Shown here: one piece after another, positions 12 through 32,375 of the stretch
How positions within the stretch are numbered: the first letter of the stretch is position 1
Layout of the letters: the number at the start of each line of letters is the position of its first letter
Assembly: GCF_009184905.1 (NCBI RefSeq)
Contig: NZ_WESC01000006.1
Location: forward strand, 62,001 to 126,000
Reading direction: 5' to 3'
DNA from: Parvibaculum sedimenti
Lineage (GTDB): Bacteria; Pseudomonadota; Alphaproteobacteria; Parvibaculales; Parvibaculaceae
DNA: 64,000 bases
Program-made: the position numbers and the translations under genes
Notes under the pieces: generated by a model
The model's input: only the letters and a program-made list of their open reading frames with translations
The model's database searches: none
What the model was told of the DNA's origin: nothing

Positions 12-740
12 TCATTTTTTCCCGGTCTGCGACGTTCGTTTATTTCGCGAGGGTTCTATTTTGCGTATGCCGCCTACGGACATTCCGTCGACCACGAATT
101 TGAGAAGTACATGCATGTTTTGCTTGAAGGCGCTGTGGCTGACATAGGTTCCCAGCCAGGTTTGCAGCTGCTGATAGTAGATGGCAAACAGGCATCGCGC
201 TGCTTCGACCGGATCAATATCGGCGCGAATTTCGCCGCGCGCCCGAGCTGCTGAGACGAAATGGACAAGCTTTTCGATAATCGCTTCTGGAATGGTGAGC
301 ACGTCTTTCCGGCGCCCAGGGTTGCCGGAGAAGCTGAGTTCGCGAATTAGCGCGCGGGCAATGACAACATCGCGTCTGTGATATTCAATAAACCCGTCGA
401 ACAATGACTCCGCTTGCTCGAGCAACGGGGCCTTCTTCCGAATTGTTCCATACACTTCCTCTATCAACTGGCTCATTTCATCCTTGAAAACCAGGATGAG
501 GAGGTCTTCCTTTGATTTAGCATAGAGAAATAGTGTGCCAGCTCCGATGTCGGCAGCTTCCGCCACTTCCTGCGTGGTCGTTTCCGTATAACCCTTGATG
601 TGAAACAGAGTGCGGGCCGCCGCCGTGATGCGCGCGACCTTTTCCCGCTTGTTGCGCTCTCTTCGCCCTTCCGTCTGCGGATGTTCCCTCTTTGCGGATT
701 TGGCGCTGGCTTGCTTGCTTATTTTCGAGGATGTGTCCAT
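12..740 (-). CDS. TetR/AcrR family transcriptional regulator
   Basis: This 242-residue protein has a TetR-type N-terminal DNA-binding domain. A basic leader (about residues 1-35) precedes the helix-turn-helix, whose recognition part lies around residues 53-75 (TTTQEVAEAADIGAGTLFLY). The C-terminal helices should form the ligand pocket and dimer interface; that part has diverged too far to name a ligand. The gene points away from the meta-cleavage operon that starts 270 bp to the right. A good sigma70-like promoter and a small palindrome lie in the gap, so it most likely represses that operon and perhaps itself. The Lys/Arg-rich leader is longer than usual for the family. The family call is firm; the target is inferred from position. 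Confidence 0.9.
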   Translation of the reverse strand: MDTSSKISKQASAKSAKREHPQTEGRRERNKREKVARITAAARTLFHIKGYTETTTQEVAEAADIGAGTLFLYAKSKEDLLILVFKDEMSQLIEEVYGTIRKKAPLLEQAESLFDGFIEYHRRDVVIARALIRELSFSGNPGRRKDVLTIPEAIIEKLVHFVSAARARGEIRADIDPVEAARCLFAIYYQQLQTWLGTYVSHSAFKQNMHVLLKFVVDGMSVGGIRKIEPSRNKRTSQTGKK

Positions 741-15655: not shown

Positions 15656-16495
15656 TTACGGCGCTATATCGTCGTCGATTTCAAGTTGGTCCTCGTCGGC
15701 GAGAGTCTCCTTAAAGCCTCGACCGTTTTGTGAGATGTGCTCGGCGATGGCGTTTTTCAATAACTCCGTGAACGGTTGTTTGCGATTGCGAAAATACTCG
15801 TTGGGAGCGGCTATCCCGATCGCGACCGGGCGTCCGGCCGAACCCATCGGAATGGGCATCGCCAGCATGGTGGCTCCCGGCGTCACGAGATCGCTGTAAA
15901 GCGCGAAGCCGCGCTTTCTGATTCTTTGCAGTTCGTCTTCGATCTCCTGCATCGATCCCCGCCGCTCCGGCATGGCGGCAAGGGCGTCTTGAATCAAACG
16001 TCTCGCTTCGGGCAAGGGGAGTTCGCTCAGCAGAACGCGGCCCATCGTCGAAAAAGCGAGCATTCGCCTGGTGCTTGGCTTGACATGAAAGCGGATGGGC
16101 GACGTACCTTGAATCACCTTCACATATTGAGCATAAGCTCCCAGTCGCGTAGCGAGGATGATCGTGCATCCCGTATCGGCCGAAAGCCGTCTCATAAGGC
16201 GCTGGACATTCCGGATCGGTAACGCCTCGGCTTCCACCCAGTTTCCCAGCAAGGATATCCGGATGCTCGGAAAAAAAGTCTTGACCCGGTCGTCGTGCTC
16301 CAGATAGCCGAGGCTGACGAGGCTTTTCAGAAGGGCGGCGGTACTGGAATGAGGATAACTCAGCGCCTGCGCCACGTCTTGAATCGTCACTGGGCGTCTG
16401 ACTTCGTCGAAATACTCGAAAATCTCCAGAACGCGGGTCGCGGATTTTACCGTTGCAGCCGAGGGCAGTTCGGATTTGAGGACGTTAGCGTTCAT
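15656..16495 (-). CDS. IclR family transcriptional regulator
   Basis: A 279-residue IclR-type regulator: a winged helix at about residues 15-75 (SATRVLEIFEYFDEVRRPVTIQDVAQAL, HSSTAALLKSLVSLGYLEHD) and a C-terminal effector domain with MGRVLLSELPLPEARRLI. IclR proteins usually control aromatic and short-chain acid catabolism. The gene lies 57 bp after the FadH-like gene on the same strand, so it may be the last member of the CMD-MaoC-FadH operon. The C-terminal tail (about 25 residues, acidic) is longer than usual. Candidate targets are the divergent operons carrying the ATAACA/TATGTGTT words, but this link is untested. Confidence 0.9.
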   Translation of the reverse strand: MNANVLKSELPSAATVKSATRVLEIFEYFDEVRRPVTIQDVAQALSYPHSSTAALLKSLVSLGYLEHDDRVKTFFPSIRISLLGNWVEAEALPIRNVQRLMRRLSADTGCTIILATRLGAYAQYVKVIQGTSPIRFHVKPSTRRMLAFSTMGRVLLSELPLPEARRLIQDALAAMPERRGSMQEIEDELQRIRKRGFALYSDLVTPGATMLAMPIPMGSAGRPVAIGIAAPNEYFRNRKQPFTELLKNAIAEHISQNGRGFKETLADEDQLEIDDDIAP

Positions 16496-26633: not shown

Positions 26634-26726
26634 AAGAGGCGGACAATTCGATCTTTTGCCCGCTCGGATAAATTCATTATAATAAAAAATACAAACACCC
26701 GGATCGTTGCCGCGAAAGGTCAGTAG

Positions 26727-27926
26727 ATGGATATCGAGCTTACGAAAGAGGATGAAGCCTTCCGCGCGGAAGTCCGTCGGTTCATTTCGGAAAAACTGCC
26801 CAGGGAACTGGCGGAGAAAGACACAGTGGGCGCGTCCGGCGAGCGCGGTGCGCTCAAGCGCTGGCAGAAGGACCTCCACGAGAAAGGCTGGGTAGCGGTC
26901 AATTGGCCCAAGCAGTTTGGCGGCACTGGATGGACGCCGATGCAAAAGCATATTTTCAACGAGGAGATGGCCGCCGCTAACGCGCCGCGTCTGTCGCCTT
27001 TCGGTCTGTCGATGGTCGGCCCGGTGATCTACACCTTCGGCAACGAAGCGCAGAAAAAGCAGCATCTGGCGGGCATTCTTACCGGCGATGTCTGGTGGTG
27101 TCAGGGCTATTCGGAGCCGGGATCCGGATCGGACCTCGCCTCGCTGAAGACCAGGGCCGTGCGTCAGGGCGACCATTACATCGTCAACGGTCAGAAAATC
27201 TGGACGTCCTATGCCCACGAAGCCGATTGGATATTCTGTCTCGTGCGAACGGATGAGACCGCTAAACCGCAGGAGGGCATCTCGTTCCTTCTGATCGACA
27301 TGAAGACGCCCGGCATCGAGGTGAAGCCCATCATTTCCATCGATGGCCTGCATCACTTGAACGAAGTTTTTTTCACTGACGTCAAGGTGCCGGTGACGAA
27401 CCGCATCGGCGATGAAAACAAGGGCTGGACCTACGCGAAGTTCCTGCTCGTCAATGAGCGCACCGGCATTGCAGGTGTTCCTGAGTCCAAGCGCAAGATC
27501 GCGCATCTCAGAAAGATCGCGAAACAGGAAAGGCTTGGCGATGGCGCGGCGCTGGCGGACGAACCGGCATTCATGACGAGGCTTTCCGAAATCGAGGTGA
27601 AGCTTACGGGTCTTGAATATACCAATCTGAGGATCGTCGCGGAGGAGGTGGCGGGTCGCCCTGCGGGCCCCTCTTCCTCGACCTTGAAGATTGTCGGGAC
27701 CGAAGTTCAGCAGGCGTTGTCGGAGCTTGCCGTCGAAGCAGCGGCCTTCTACGCCATGCCGTTCCAGAAGGAACATTTGATGGGAATCGCCAATGAAGCG
27801 CCCGTCGGGCCCGCCTATGCGGTTAGCGTGACGAGTGCCTATAATTTCGGTCGCGCCGCTTCGATTTATGGCGGTTCGAACGAAATCCAGCGCAATGTCA
27901 TTGCAAAGGCCGTTCTGGGACTTTGA
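26727..27926 (+). CDS. acyl-CoA dehydrogenase, alpha-type paralogue 2
   Basis: A 399-residue protein, the same length as its left neighbour and nearly identical in key segments (WWCQGYSEPGSGSDLASLKT; VNGQKIWTSYAHEADWIFCL; SIYGGSNEIQ). The catalytic base is again at the isovaleryl-type position, Glu244 in LVNERTGIAG, and Gly replaces the medium-chain Glu. The 93-bp gap before it is AT-rich and includes CATTATAAT (26675-26683), which also forms the core of the palindrome at 31768-31787, so it may have its own regulated promoter. A clear hairpin ends transcription just after the stop codon. Confidence 0.9.
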   Translation: MDIELTKEDEAFRAEVRRFISEKLPRELAEKDTVGASGERGALKRWQKDLHEKGWVAVNWPKQFGGTGWTPMQKHIFNEEMAAANAPRLSPFGLSMVGPVIYTFGNEAQKKQHLAGILTGDVWWCQGYSEPGSGSDLASLKTRAVRQGDHYIVNGQKIWTSYAHEADWIFCLVRTDETAKPQEGISFLLIDMKTPGIEVKPIISIDGLHHLNEVFFTDVKVPVTNRIGDENKGWTYAKFLLVNERTGIAGVPESKRKIAHLRKIAKQERLGDGAALADEPAFMTRLSEIEVKLTGLEYTNLRIVAEEVAGRPAGPSSSTLKIVGTEVQQALSELAVEAAAFYAMPFQKEHLMGIANEAPVGPAYAVSVTSAYNFGRAASIYGGSNEIQRNVIAKAVLGL

Positions 27927-27989: not shown

Positions 27990-29120
27990 TTACGCCGCCT
28001 GCGAATAGCGCTTGAGCTGGTGATCGACGTTGCCGAACTGGGTGTCGATCATGGTCAGCCGCTTGAAGTAGTGGCCGACATTGAGTTCGTCGGTCATGCC
28101 CATGCCGCCGTGAAGCTGCACGGCCTGCTGGCCGACGAAGCGGCCGGCCTTGCCGATCTGCACCTTGGCGCCGGCGGCGGCCTTGACGCGCTCGGCGTCG
28201 CTCTCCGAAAGCTTCAGGTTGACCATGTAGGTCATGGAGACGGACTGCTCATAGGCCATGAACATGTCGACCATGCGGTGCTGCAGCACCTGGAACTTGC
28301 CGATGGGAACGCCGAACTGCTTGCGCGTCTTGCAGTACTCGACGGTCGCCTTGTTGAGTTCGCCCATGCAGCCGATGGCTTCGGCGGAGAGAGCGGCGAT
28401 CGCCTGATCGGTGATCTTCTCGACGAGCGGCAGGGCCTTGCCTTCCGCGCCGATCAGCGCGTCGGCGCCGAGCTTGACGTTCTCGAAGGTGATTTCCGAA
28501 GCGCGGCGGCCATCGACCGTCGGGTAGTCGCGGGTCGAAACGCCCGCCGCCGACTTGTCGACGATGAAGACCGAGACGCCGTCGCGGTCGCCCTGGCCGC
28601 CGGAGGTGCGCGCGGTCACAATCAGCTTCTGGGCCCAGGGGGCGCCGAGAACGACGGCCTTGTAACCGTTCAGCGTGTAGCCCGCGCCGTCCTTCTTCGC
28701 CGTGGTGACGAGGTCGGCAAGGTTGTAGCGGCCCTGCGGCTCGGCATAGGCGAAGGCCCAAACGGTCGAGCCGTCAACGATGCCGGGGATGAAGGCGTCC
28801 TGCTGCGCCTTCGAGCCGCCCTCGCGGAGGAACCCGCCGGCGAGCACGACCGTCTCGACGAAGGGTTCGACGACGAGGTGACGGCCGAACTCTTCCATCA
28901 GGATCATCGTTTCGATGGGGCCGCCGCCGAGGCCGCCCTGCTCTTCCGAAAAGGGCGCGGCGAGAAGGCCGAGATCGGCGAACTGCTTCCACATGGCCGG
29001 GTTCCAGCCGTCGGCCGACTTCACGATCTTGCGGCGCGTGTCGAAGTCATATTTGTCGGCGAGCAGGCTCTGCACCGAATTGCGCAGCAGCGTCTGCTCC
29101 TCGCTGAACGAAAAATCCAT
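27990..29120 (-). CDS. acyl-CoA dehydrogenase, beta-type (non-catalytic) subunit
   Basis: A 376-residue acyl-CoA dehydrogenase-fold protein: FSEEQTLLRNSVQSLL, GLLAAPFSEEQGGLGGG, TLNGYKAVVLGAPWA and CKTRKQFGVPIGKFQVLQHRMVDMF. The isovaleryl-type base position holds Ala (IAALSAEA) and the C-terminal site reads TQFGNVDHQLKRY, so no catalytic Glu is visible. Such proteins (PimD or FadE27-like small subunits) pair with alpha-type partners. It is the last gene of the leftward ligase-SDR-dehydrogenase operon, and it faces the tandem alpha-type genes across the terminator; these are the natural partners. Confidence 0.87.
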   Translation of the reverse strand: MDFSFSEEQTLLRNSVQSLLADKYDFDTRRKIVKSADGWNPAMWKQFADLGLLAAPFSEEQGGLGGGPIETMILMEEFGRHLVVEPFVETVVLAGGFLREGGSKAQQDAFIPGIVDGSTVWAFAYAEPQGRYNLADLVTTAKKDGAGYTLNGYKAVVLGAPWAQKLIVTARTSGGQGDRDGVSVFIVDKSAAGVSTRDYPTVDGRRASEITFENVKLGADALIGAEGKALPLVEKITDQAIAALSAEAIGCMGELNKATVEYCKTRKQFGVPIGKFQVLQHRMVDMFMAYEQSVSMTYMVNLKLSESDAERVKAAAGAKVQIGKAGRFVGQQAVQLHGGMGMTDELNVGHYFKRLTMIDTQFGNVDHQLKRYSQAA

Positions 29121-29194: not shown

Positions 29195-30097
29195 TCAGCC
29201 GCCGATCGCGTCCGGCGGTCTCGTCTTGCTGAGAAGGTCCTTGACGATCGGGCCAAGCTCGACCGGATCGAAACGGCGTTTCGGATTGATGGCGGGCCCG
29301 CGATGCCAGCGCTCGAAGACTGTCAGCCTCCCGCCCGTCGACTCGAAGACCTGTCCGGTCACGTCTTTCGACTCGCTGCTTCCTAGCCAGACGACGACCG
29401 GCGCGATATTGGCGGGATCGCGGGGGTTCCACTCGCCCTCGGGTACCGCCACGGCATAGCCGAGATCTTCCGTCATCCGGGTAAGCGCGCCCGGCGAGAT
29501 CGCATTCACGGTGATGCCATAGCGCGCAAGCTCCATCGCCGACGTGATCGTGAAAGCGGCAATGCCGGCTTTGGCCGCGCCATAATTGCATTGTCCCTGA
29601 TTGCCCAGCAGGCCCGAGACGGAGGTTGTGTTGATGATGCGGGCGTCGACCGTCTTGCCTTCCTTTACCTGTGCCCGCCAGTAGTTCGCGGCATGGTGAG
29701 CCGGGCAAAACGTGCCTCTCAGATGAACCTTGATGACCGCATCCCATTCGTCGATCGTCATGTTGGTCAGCATGCGGTCGCGCAAAATGCCGGCATTGCT
29801 GACGAGCACGTCGAGGCCGCCAAAGGTCGAGATCGCTTGATCGACCATCCGTTTGGCGCCGTCCCAATCGGACACGTCATCGCCATTGGCGACCGCCTCG
29901 CCCCCCATGGCCCTGATTTCCTTCGCCAGCGCCTCGGCGGGTTCGCTCGACCGGCCTTCGCCTGTCCGCTCTCCACCGAGATCGTTCACCACAACCTTGG
30001 CACCCTGACGCGCGAATTCCAGGCAATGTTCCCGCCCGATACCTCTGGCACCGCCCGTCACGATAACAACGCGGCCCTTGCACAATCCAGACGTCAT
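29195..30097 (-). CDS. short-chain dehydrogenase (MFE/17beta-HSD4-like hydroxyacyl-CoA DH)
   Basis: A 300-residue SDR. The cofactor loop is TGGARGIGREHC near residues 15-26, then VVNDLGG, and the catalytic Ser and Tyr-x-x-x-Lys lie in INTTSVSGLLGNQGQCNYGAAKAG. The N-terminal VVVNDLGGERTGEGRSSEPAEALAKEI stretch is typical of the dehydrogenase domain of peroxisomal multifunctional enzyme 2, which oxidises (R)-3-hydroxyacyl-CoA. That matches the stereochemistry of the MaoC hydratase in this island. It lies between the acyl-CoA ligase (16 bp) and the beta-type dehydrogenase gene (74 bp). Confidence 0.88.
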   Translation of the reverse strand: MTSGLCKGRVVIVTGGARGIGREHCLEFARQGAKVVVNDLGGERTGEGRSSEPAEALAKEIRAMGGEAVANGDDVSDWDGAKRMVDQAISTFGGLDVLVSNAGILRDRMLTNMTIDEWDAVIKVHLRGTFCPAHHAANYWRAQVKEGKTVDARIINTTSVSGLLGNQGQCNYGAAKAGIAAFTITSAMELARYGITVNAISPGALTRMTEDLGYAVAVPEGEWNPRDPANIAPVVVWLGSSESKDVTGQVFESTGGRLTVFERWHRGPAINPKRRFDPVELGPIVKDLLSKTRPPDAIGG

Positions 30098-30113: not shown

Positions 30114-31688
30114 TCATATTTTCTTTTCGCCTTGCCAGTATCTGTCGCGAACCGTCCGCCGCACGATCTTGCCCGTCGTCAGCCGCGGCAGGTCATCCGC
30201 GAAATCGACGGATCGGGGGCGTTTATAGGCCGCCAGCCGCGCACCCACGAAATCGAGTATGTCCTTGGCCAGCGCTTCGCCCGGTTCGTAACCATCATTG
30301 AGCTGAACGACAGCCTTCACTTCTTCGCCCCAGTCCTTGTTGGGCACGCCGACTGTGGCCACGTCCTTGACCGAGGGGTGCTGAAGGATCTCCTGGTCGA
30401 TCTCGGCGGGATAGATGTTGACGCCGCCGGAAATAATGACCTCGGCGCTGCGGCCAGTCAGGAACAGGAATCCGTCCTCATCGACATAGCCCATGTCGCC
30501 CATGGTGAAAAAATCGCCCCGGTAGACGCTCGCGGTTTTTTCCGGCGCCTTGAAATATTCGAACCGGCCGGTTTCGGGCGCCTTGAAATAGACGGTGCCG
30601 ATCTCGCCTCGCGGCAACTCCTTGCCATTCTCGTCCTGAATCTGCAGAACGACACCCTCCGTCGGCTTGCCCACCGAACCGGGCTTTTCTAGCCATTCGT
30701 CCGGATGGACAAAGACTCCGCCGCCTTCCGTCGCGCCGTAATATTCAAAGACGACCGGACCGAGCCACTCGATCGTCTCCCGTTTCACATGCACGGGGCA
30801 GGGGGCCGCCCCGTGGAGGATCCACCTCAGCGTCGAGATGTCGTATTTGGCCCGGACCTCGGGCGGAAGAAGGAGAATGCGGTGAAGCATGGTCGGTACG
30901 ACATGCGTATGCGTGATGCGCAGTTTATCGACCAGCCGAAGCATTTCCTCCGCGTCCCACTTGTCCATCAGTACCGTGCCGACGCCGGCCGAGAGCGGAA
31001 GCAGGAGATTGAGGGACAGCGGCGCCGCGTGATAAAGCGGCCCCGTCACCACAGCCAGGTCCGTGGCGTTGTTGAACCGCGCCGTCTCGACCATCTTGCT
31101 GAAAAGCGACGAGGCCGCCGGCGCGCTGCCCCGGTAAACGCCCTTCGGATGACCGGTCGTGCCCGACGTATAGAGCATCTGGCTGCCGATGACGGGATCG
31201 TCGATATTCGCGCCGGACTCGCGCGCGACCAGCGCGTCGTAAGAGGCAAAACCCTCGATTGGTCCGCCCACGGCGAGTTTGATGCGCAGACCGGACGCCG
31301 CGGTAGCGGCTTGCGTCGCCGAGGGAGCAAGCCGTATATCCGCGATAAAAGCCTTGGCCTCGCAATTGTCCACGATATAGGCGACTTCCGTGGGCGTGAG
31401 ATGCCAGTTGACGGGAGTCATCCGGAATCCGGCACGTTGACAGGCCACGACGGTCTCGACGAATTCGGGACGGTTGATGCAGAGCAGCGCCACGCCATCG
31501 TCGGGTTGAAGGCCCGCGCCACGCAACACCCTGACCAGCCGGTTGGCCTGCGCATTCAACTCTGAAAAACTGCGGCTGCCTTTTTCGGATGAAATCGCGA
31601 GCCGGTCCGGCGCATGGGCTGCGTGCCAGGCGACGATCATTCCCTTCGATGCGGCGTCCTCGAACGACAGGCTTGACGCAGCTGTCAT
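30114..31688 (-). CDS. acyl-CoA synthetase (FadD/AMP-binding)
   Basis: An adenylate-forming ligase of 524 residues that makes an acyl-CoA from acid, ATP and CoA. The P-loop is MLYTSGTTGHPKGVYRG (about residue 165), the adenine motif EYYGATEGGG, the hinge GDMGYVDEDGFLFLTGRSAEVIISGGVNIYP, and the C-terminal catalytic Lys is in LTTGKIVRR. The acid substrate is not predictable; long-chain, steroid and bicyclic acids all occur in this family. It leads the leftward operon and is preceded by a 20-bp perfect palindrome over a -10 box, so it is probably the regulated entry step for the CoA-linked part of the island. Confidence 0.9.
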   Translation of the reverse strand: MTAASSLSFEDAASKGMIVAWHAAHAPDRLAISSEKGSRSFSELNAQANRLVRVLRGAGLQPDDGVALLCINRPEFVETVVACQRAGFRMTPVNWHLTPTEVAYIVDNCEAKAFIADIRLAPSATQAATAASGLRIKLAVGGPIEGFASYDALVARESGANIDDPVIGSQMLYTSGTTGHPKGVYRGSAPAASSLFSKMVETARFNNATDLAVVTGPLYHAAPLSLNLLLPLSAGVGTVLMDKWDAEEMLRLVDKLRITHTHVVPTMLHRILLLPPEVRAKYDISTLRWILHGAAPCPVHVKRETIEWLGPVVFEYYGATEGGGVFVHPDEWLEKPGSVGKPTEGVVLQIQDENGKELPRGEIGTVYFKAPETGRFEYFKAPEKTASVYRGDFFTMGDMGYVDEDGFLFLTGRSAEVIISGGVNIYPAEIDQEILQHPSVKDVATVGVPNKDWGEEVKAVVQLNDGYEPGEALAKDILDFVGARLAAYKRPRSVDFADDLPRLTTGKIVRRTVRDRYWQGEKKI

Positions 31689-31767
31689 GGTTCCTCCCTG
31701 AAACGCTCTTCCCCGGTTGCCGACACGAGAGGCCGACTTCGGATAGTTTAATCATCCGCATAGCTTT

Positions 31768-31787
31768 TAAAACATTATAATGTTTTA
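31768..31787. promoter_or_regulatory. 20-bp perfect palindrome over the ligase promoter
   Basis: TAAAACATTATAATGTTTTA is a perfect 20-bp palindrome, 80 bp before the acyl-CoA ligase start. On the minus strand it contains a consensus -10 box (TATAAT, 31774-31779), with TCGACA (31796-31801) 16 bp upstream as a -35 box. A repressor bound here would block the promoter directly. The sequence is strikingly AT-rich against its surroundings. The cognate protein is unknown; the TetR at the left end and the IclR are candidates. Confidence 0.6.
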
Positions 31788-31863
31788 CGGAATGCTGTCG
31801 ATGGCCTGAAAGCAGCCGCGAAATCTCCGGCGCGTGGATACAAAAGATCAGCTTGCCTCGACG

Positions 31864-32046
31864 TCAGATGACGCCATCGGCCTTCAGGGCGTCGATTTCG
31901 CTGTCGCTGAGCCCCGGCACGCCGCCGTAAATTTCGCGATTGTGCTCGCCGGGTCTCGCGTTGGACGCGCCCGTCATCCGCGGCGTGCCGTGATACCGCA
32001 ATGGAGAAAAGCCCATGCGTTCACAATGCCGGAAGCAGCCTGGACG
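31864..32046 (-). pseudogene. C-terminal stub of a class III (CaiB/BaiF) CoA-transferase
   Basis: The last 50 or so codons of a CaiB/BaiF CoA-transferase are readable on the minus strand: RYHGTPRMTGASNARPGEHN, then VPGLSDSEIDALKADGVI and a stop. These match the usual C-terminal PGEHN and LSDxEIxxL pattern of the family. The rest of the gene (about 350 codons expected) is missing. The frame runs straight into IS3-type transposase debris near 32046, so an insertion and later deletion removed the 5' part. The right-hand limit is approximate. Confidence 0.65.
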
Positions 32047-32375
32047 GTGAGTTTTATGGCAAGGATGTCGCGCTCCGCCTTGAGCTTCGTGACCTCGCGG
32101 CGAAGCACGTTCGATCTCCAGCTGTTCGGGCTTCATCCGCCATGGCCGGGAAAGGCATGCGCCGGATCGACCGCCAGTCCCCGATCCATTTGCGAAGCAC
32201 ATTCTGGTGCACATCAAGATCACGGACCGCTTGCGCTATCGTCACGCCCCGTTCCCGCACCAGATTCACCGCCTCAAGCTTGAACTCGCGGTTGAATATC
32301 CTTCGTCCCATAGTCCACCTCCGGTTCCATCATGACACCTAAACTTCGTGTCCGTGAAACCGGCAGCAGCCCAGA
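32047..32375 (-). mobile_element. decayed IS3-family element, orfA remnant
   Basis: Reading leftward, an ATG at 32311 opens an IS3-type orfA: MGRRIFNREFKLEAVNLVRE, then GVTIAQAVRDLDVHQNVLRKWI. Typical continuation pieces follow in shifted frames: DPAHAFPGHG, MKPEQLEIER, then REVTKLKAERDIL. At least two frame changes have destroyed it, and no orfB (DDE integrase) is present. The sequence to the right of the start (to about 32375) may hold the terminal inverted repeat, but the other end is lost, so the limits are approximate. It marks the break that truncated the neighbouring CoA-transferase gene. Confidence 0.7.

Follow-up and report, generated by a model that had tools for sequence, protein, structure and literature searches.

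A candidate operator palindrome at the acyl-CoA ligase promoter of Parvibaculum sedimenti and a putative GntR regulon in the surrounding catabolic cluster

Described operators and the ligase-promoter palindrome

AlkR of Pseudomonas aeruginosa SJTD-1, a regulator of the GntR/VanR type with an FCD domain, occupies a palindrome over the -10 box of alkB2 and is freed by C16/C18-CoA (PMC12042122). The locus that we describe resembles it in having an FCD-domain GntR gene beside a hydrocarbon monooxygenase gene and a site over the -10, but the AlkR operator, ATTGTCAGACAAT, is of odd length and contains GT/AC boxes, and AlkR controls the AlkB2 monooxygenase, with binding near ladA1 and almA also mentioned in that account (PMC12042122). 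Atu1419 of Agrobacterium fabrum, of the VanR type with an FCD domain, is likewise a GntR repressor that controls a catabolic region in an alphaproteobacterium, and its palindromes are A/T-rich with some lying over -10 boxes; it differs in its own 10-bp sequence, ATGTATACAT, in which Arg45 reads a G-C pair that is essential, in forming a tetramer able to loop DNA and in serving a hydroxycinnamate pathway (PMC7797058). An operator without GT/AC boxes is known within the FadR subfamily from BioR (TTATMKATAA), whose function lies in biotin metabolism and whose TTAT and ATAA half-sites enclose a two-base centre, in contrast to four bases here (PMC4494728). The TTAT...ATAA arrangement is contained in one of the sites reported below, site F.

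The DNA analysed here, referred to as the window, is 64,000 nucleotides of Parvibaculum sedimenti, corresponding to C38:62001-126000, where C38 is the contig of the window and the genome is 3.70 Mb. A first-pass annotation had described a 20-bp perfect palindrome over the -10 box of an acyl-CoA ligase operon, and the sequence TAAAACATTATAATGTTTTA at 31768-31787 (site A) is indeed symmetric across all 20 bp; no other perfect even palindrome in the window is as long, the runner-up having 16 bp. Palindromes of 20 bp or longer are expected from base composition at about 0.1 per 64-kb window, so the length by itself is mildly unusual and constitutes weak evidence. The promoter proposed in the same annotation also stands: on the minus strand, TATAAT (31774-31779) is preceded at a 16-nt spacing by TCGACA (31796-31801), matching the sigma-70 consensus at 11 of 12 positions. 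KstR and KstR2 are TetR-family proteins with palindromic operators in steroid degradation regulons; their motifs, which we take to be AAC-N2-GTT and AAGCAAG-N2-CTTGCTT, do not appear to fit the ligase palindrome, as the annotation had proposed. VanR of Caulobacter may be a further analogue, on which no weight is placed here.

The operon begins with an AMP-binding acyl-CoA ligase (30114-31688, minus strand; PF00501/PF13193) and continues on the same strand with a short-chain dehydrogenase (29195-30097; PF00106) and an acyl-CoA dehydrogenase (27990-29120; PF00441/PF02770/PF02771), for which the top NCBIfam match is pimD_small, under the model cut-off. The nearest relatives with the same ligase are found in Parvibaculum, Rhodobiaceae and unclassified alphaproteobacterial metagenome-assembled genomes. 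A ligase of at least 94% identity was found in four of 27 genus genomes, indicating that the operon is accessory.

Alignment of the window promoter with those of five relatives (L041-L045, ligases 94-96% identical) shows 54 variable columns among the 176 of the intergenic region; a sixth relative (L046, 82% ligase identity) was excluded from the count because its upstream region differs. The -10 hexamer is invariant in all six loci, as is an 8-nt block, ATCGACAG, that includes the -35 hexamer, and the spacer is 16 nt in the window and 17 in two relatives. The longest invariant block, the 13-nt AAAACATTATAAT, consists of the upstream arm of the palindrome, its core and the -10. On the downstream side of the -10 the arm reads GTTTT in three of the six loci and is changed to GTTTC, GGTTT or AGTTT in the remaining three, and the ligase site of genome G025 is AAAACATTATAATAGTTT. 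Taken by itself, this alignment looks like that of a promoter rather than of a symmetric operator. The locus might thus hold no operator, with strong sigma-70 promoters carrying a consensus TATAAT and a palindrome that extends the self-complementary core ATTATAAT by chance; the ligase relatives keep the -35, the -10 and the upstream arm while the downstream arm varies, TATAAT stands at a proper distance from a -35 in three of the sites described below (A, B and D), and the expectation of about 0.1 such palindromes per window is in keeping with this. We preferred this explanation on the ligase alignment, and dropped it on account of the cluster-specific flank matches and of sites F and G (see below). 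At ligase paralogue loci (L005-L027, approximately 65-70% identity), no palindrome within five mismatches occurs in up to 1.5 kb on each side.

The 5' leader of the ligase operon contains an imperfect inverted repeat, CGGATG...CATCCG (TATCCG in this genome), at 31740-31758, approximately 16-34 nt downstream of the -10. It is largely kept in the six ligase loci and may be either a second operator or a leader hairpin.

Seven candidate sites in one catabolic cluster

The genome scan proposed with the annotation gave no further copy of the palindrome: the 18-bp core has no second match in the genome at up to three mismatches. We initially counted this against any regulon and a regulon of exact repeats was rejected, so that a regulon is visible only through a degenerate motif. 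Such a motif is present, and the recurrence of the core before an acyl-CoA dehydrogenase gene noted in the annotation is confirmed. The sequence CATTATAAT lies at 26675-26683, within site B (AAATTCATTATAATAAAAAA, 26670-26689) and in the -10 region (TTGCCC-16-TATAAT, 10 of 12 positions) of the gene at 26727-27926 on the plus strand, which is assigned to the acyl-CoA dehydrogenases by Pfam and has pimC_large as top NCBIfam match, under the model cut-off. CATTATAAT occurs at four places in the 3.70 Mb genome, three of them inside 34 kb of C38.

The copies at C38:60018 and window position 26675 have the 19-mer ATAAATTCATTATAATAAA in common and differ in their outer flanks. With up to three mismatches this 19-mer is found at 26 places in 14 of the 27 genus genomes, and its reversed-pattern control at none. 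All but one of the 26 (the exception is in G026) are accounted for by two orthologous promoters with different flanks, one before a P450 gene and the other before the acyl-CoA dehydrogenase gene of window position 26727. The extended motif WWYATTATAATRWW has exactly three mismatch-free occurrences in the genome, each of them within the cluster, and among the matches listed for it (from 16 of the 27 genomes, the last in part) 14 of 15 belong to site A, B or C or to an orthologue of one of these, with the fifteenth lying 4 kb from a gntR homologue. This restriction of exact matches to the cluster argues against a mere promoter. Allowing one mismatch made WWYATTATAATRWW uninformative as a regulon probe, which is a limit of the method: the counts are near those of the control, with totals for the 27 genomes of 111 places in the forward search and 84 in the control, scarcely an enrichment, and five against eight in the genome of the window.

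A symmetric weight matrix, trained on second-genus sites and on the B, C and E sites of several genomes with the ligase sites left out, was run over 126 kb (C38:1-126000). The seven top scores all lie outside predicted ORFs and upstream of genes of one 60-kb catabolic cluster. These are site C (C38:60012, score 29.7) before P450-1; site B (C38:88670, window 26670; 28.8) before the acyl-CoA dehydrogenase gene; site E (C38:55515; 26.6) before the alpha/beta-hydrolase and gntR genes; site F (C38:56503; 22.9) before genes for a nitronate-monooxygenase-like protein, a thioesterase and an FMO-like monooxygenase; site A, fifth (C38:93768, window 31768; 22.0), before the ligase operon; site D (C38:43012; 19.6) before P450-2; and site G (C38:33906; 17.4) before a thiolase-like gene. 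The next nine matches comprise one that overlaps site B with a shift of 3 nt and eight inside predicted ORFs. The third P450 gene of the cluster (C38:52423-53688) is without a site.

Three of the seven sites belong to the classes on which the matrix was trained. In 20 Markov shuffles of 92 kb the top score was 18.5 and the ligase site was never equalled, and 324 kb from elsewhere in the genome yielded two matches of at least 17 (19.9 and 18.2) versus seven in the 60-kb cluster. Given these control and shuffle maxima, neither site D nor site G exceeds chance when considered alone. If only A, D, F and G are counted, the four that do not belong to the training classes, the Poisson chance is approximately 6e-4, at a threshold picked post hoc. 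When the second-genus sites are omitted from the matrix, site A drops to 18.0, still fifth in 92 kb and below the best control match of the full matrix; the ligase sites of the five relatives score 19.5-23.1 on the matrix built without ligase sites. Site G was anticipated from matches in two relatives (G017 and G001) before the corresponding stretch of the window contig was examined. A matrix from Parvibaculum alone gives several high matches in the clusters of G032, G061 and G062, where the ORF filter is less reliable, including counterparts of E and G as well as one site that has the core of F, ATGATCAT; some high matches in G024 fall within ORFs, and G013 carries sites B, C, E and F.

Site D is strongly variable among three aligned genomes, which gives the impression of an operator in decay or in the course of replacement.

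Five of the seven sites, those at the ligase, acyl-CoA dehydrogenase, hydrolase/gntR and two P450 promoters, overlap a -10-like hexamer. At sites A, B and D, TATAAT occupies the same register and the promoters match at 11, 10 and 11 of 12 positions, the promoter at site C reads TTGACG-19-TATTAT, and site E overlaps the CATAAT of the hydrolase promoter. No convincing -35/-10 pair is present at sites F and G, suggesting that the shared motif is more than a plain promoter or -10 element. The motif would thus have to be a promoter by-product at a site without a consensus -10 (E) and at two that are not promoter-like (F and G), all of which match the matrix nonetheless, and ligase-like arms are also found upstream of gntR in another genus; strong promoters with a chance palindrome are accordingly quite unlikely as a full account. 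The part of the earlier proposal that treats the palindrome as an operator, and places it and the acyl-CoA dehydrogenase promoter in one small regulon, is favoured by seven candidate sites, with conservation in Parvibaculum and the second genus, although strict symmetry of the ligase site is not conserved, being altered in three of six loci.

The FCD-domain GntR protein as candidate binder

The palindrome is probably the operator of a local, autoregulated repressor, for which the best candidate is the FCD-domain GntR protein of the cluster, with putative binding, repression and release by a ligand. Its gene, at C38:55624-56442, is approximately 6 kb outside the window and 37-38 kb from the palindrome. 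The protein has the architecture of the FadR subfamily, a GntR winged helix (PF00392, 37.1 bits; cut-off 27) followed by a C-terminal FCD domain (PF07729, 72.1 bits; cut-off 24.3).

Site E (AAATCCATTATGATGAATT) is located between the alpha/beta-hydrolase gene, assigned by Pfam, and the divergent gntR, and is kept in a five-genome alignment. A site of this kind (ATTATGAT) is upstream of gntR in all 15 close loci, a count that leaves aside the partial gntR of G022 (L211), which reaches no upstream region. In the second genus, with GntR proteins of 67-69% identity, AAACTATTATAATAGTT or a near variant is at the equivalent place in three of three loci, and the arms there, AAACTATTATAATAGTTT, resemble those of the ligase palindrome. 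The more distant G024 (GntR 63%) lacks a site in the 260 nt upstream of gntR and has AAATCATTATAATAATTT approximately 4 kb from its own gntR. A site in the promoter region of the regulator's own gene, as autoregulation would entail, is thus seen in all of the close and second-genus loci and not in the single locus of G024, and several sites stand before functionally linked operons (seven in 60 kb) and are rare elsewhere.

The gntR gene is found in 16 of the 27 genus genomes, and in 13 of the 14 that have the 19-mer ATAAATTCATTATAATAAA versus three of the 13 that do not (Fisher P=3e-4), a co-occurrence that also reflects in part the presence of the whole cluster. The three genomes with gntR and no 19-mer are G022, in which the gene is partial, G024 and G025, the last two having other such sites. 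The recognition stretch YGVARATLREALRFLELQG is identical in 12 aligned GntR homologues, in line with a common site for all of them.

None of the seven sites contains the GT...AC boxes (NyGTM-N0-1-KACNy), which lowers confidence in the operator assignment and leaves the family membership of the protein as it is. Many FadR-subfamily members have an Arg with a preference for the G-C pair in the GT box, and this is described as the most frequent residue and not an obligatory one (PMC4494728). The residue aligned to it is Gln in 11 of the 12 GntR homologues and His in G024, with the mapping onto position 28 of PMC4494728 inferred from alignments. A non-Arg residue would fit an operator without GT/AC boxes.

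The same regulon could instead be governed by another regulator of the cluster: an IclR protein (window 15656-16495), a TetR protein (window 12-740) or a second TetR protein (C38:45710-46345), all three being DNA-binding regulators by Pfam. The lack in these operators of the GT/AC boxes usual for GntR proteins (PMC4494728) is a point in favour of such a protein. However, none of the seven sites precedes the IclR gene or either TetR gene. The TetR protein at 12-740 is disfavoured by its distribution across the 27 genomes, with orthologues of at least 92% identity in seven of them and in six of the 13 genomes with both the 19-mer and gntR. The other two are disfavoured by their presence pattern in stretches of four relatives, the IclR gene missing from 40 kb of G001 although sites B and C are there, and the TetR gene at C38:45710 missing from the stretches of G019 and G016 although these too have sites B and C. 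Control by one of these proteins is therefore unlikely.

In the mechanism that we favour, repression by the FCD-domain GntR, a dimer would bind an A/T-rich dyad of 14-20 bp, which is approximately TTYATKATMATRAA at the majority of sites but AAC-ATTATAAT-GTT in the ligase palindrome. Where a site overlaps the -10, the bound repressor would shut out RNA polymerase. The gntR gene would be autoregulated through the site in its own promoter region, and a pathway intermediate, either a carboxylate or a CoA-thioester, may free the repressor and so open the operons together. What the analysis shows is the sites, where they lie, how they are conserved and how they co-occur with gntR; binding of the sites by GntR, its repressing role and the nature of the releasing ligand are what we infer.

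Members of the FadR subfamily can act as activators, and GntR might bind the sites and activate or play a dual role instead of simply repressing, as this precedent and the position of sites F and G away from any recognisable -10 would allow. Set against this, five of the seven sites overlap a -10-like hexamer, the position from which the repressors AlkR and Atu1419 act (PMC12042122, PMC7797058), and we regard activation as very unlikely.

Cluster content, rearrangement and significance

Parvibaculum species degrade alkanes and surfactants and have many P450, ligase and acyl-CoA dehydrogenase genes (PMC3368416). In the cluster studied here, P450-1 has CYP153A7 as its best match among solved structures and P450-2 was assigned by Pfam, as were a ferredoxin and, on the G015 orthologue, the thiolase-like gene. 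The cluster also holds CoA-ligase and acyl-CoA dehydrogenase genes and encodes the FMO-like monooxygenase, perhaps of the Baeyer-Villiger type. As a guess, the substrate of the pathway is a cyclic or branched alkane or a similar hydrocarbon.

A direct repeat of 147 bp, 95% identical between its copies at window 31855-32001 and C38:30219-30365, bounds a 64-kb segment and consists of the 3' part of a CoA-transferase gene, presumably of the CaiB type, and some sequence behind it. In G015 and G017 the CoA-transferase gene and the ligase are adjacent, and the cluster of the window is circularly permuted by comparison, which suggests a mobile or rearranged catabolic island. Two genes of the phage-integrase family (PF00589) are on the side of the permuted cluster, at C38:10284-11978 and at C38:22197-23453, the latter just behind an ORF that by eye resembles guaA. 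The region at window 32050-32300, after the CoA-transferase stub, looks by eye like a transposase remnant, and the two short ORFs at 31864-32342 gave no Pfam match.

In the literature searched, and among the matches listed, we found nothing on the control of this Parvibaculum cluster and no title on a bacterial operator for the motif string CATTATAATG; four longer motif strings gave no match there. The regulon and its operator thus appear to be new within that literature, as an instance of a kind of system that is already known.

A more specific proposal can be put forward tentatively, at somewhat less than even confidence. The regulator would represent an undescribed branch of the FCD-domain GntR proteins in which Gln or His replaces the usual G-reading Arg, recognising an A/T-rich core (ATTATAAT or ATGATCAT) and accepting symmetric arms of two kinds, TTC...GAA and AAC...GTT. 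It would govern a seven-operon regulon of P450, Baeyer-Villiger-like and CoA-ligase functions in at least three Parvibaculaceae genera, to which the accessory ligase operon would have been recruited through its AAC...GTT arms.

With a defined operator and a candidate repressor, the control of a large P450-led cluster becomes directly testable, and the set of seven sites indicates which operons would act in concert. The FCD-domain GntR family may thereby gain an operator type outside the GT/AC rule.
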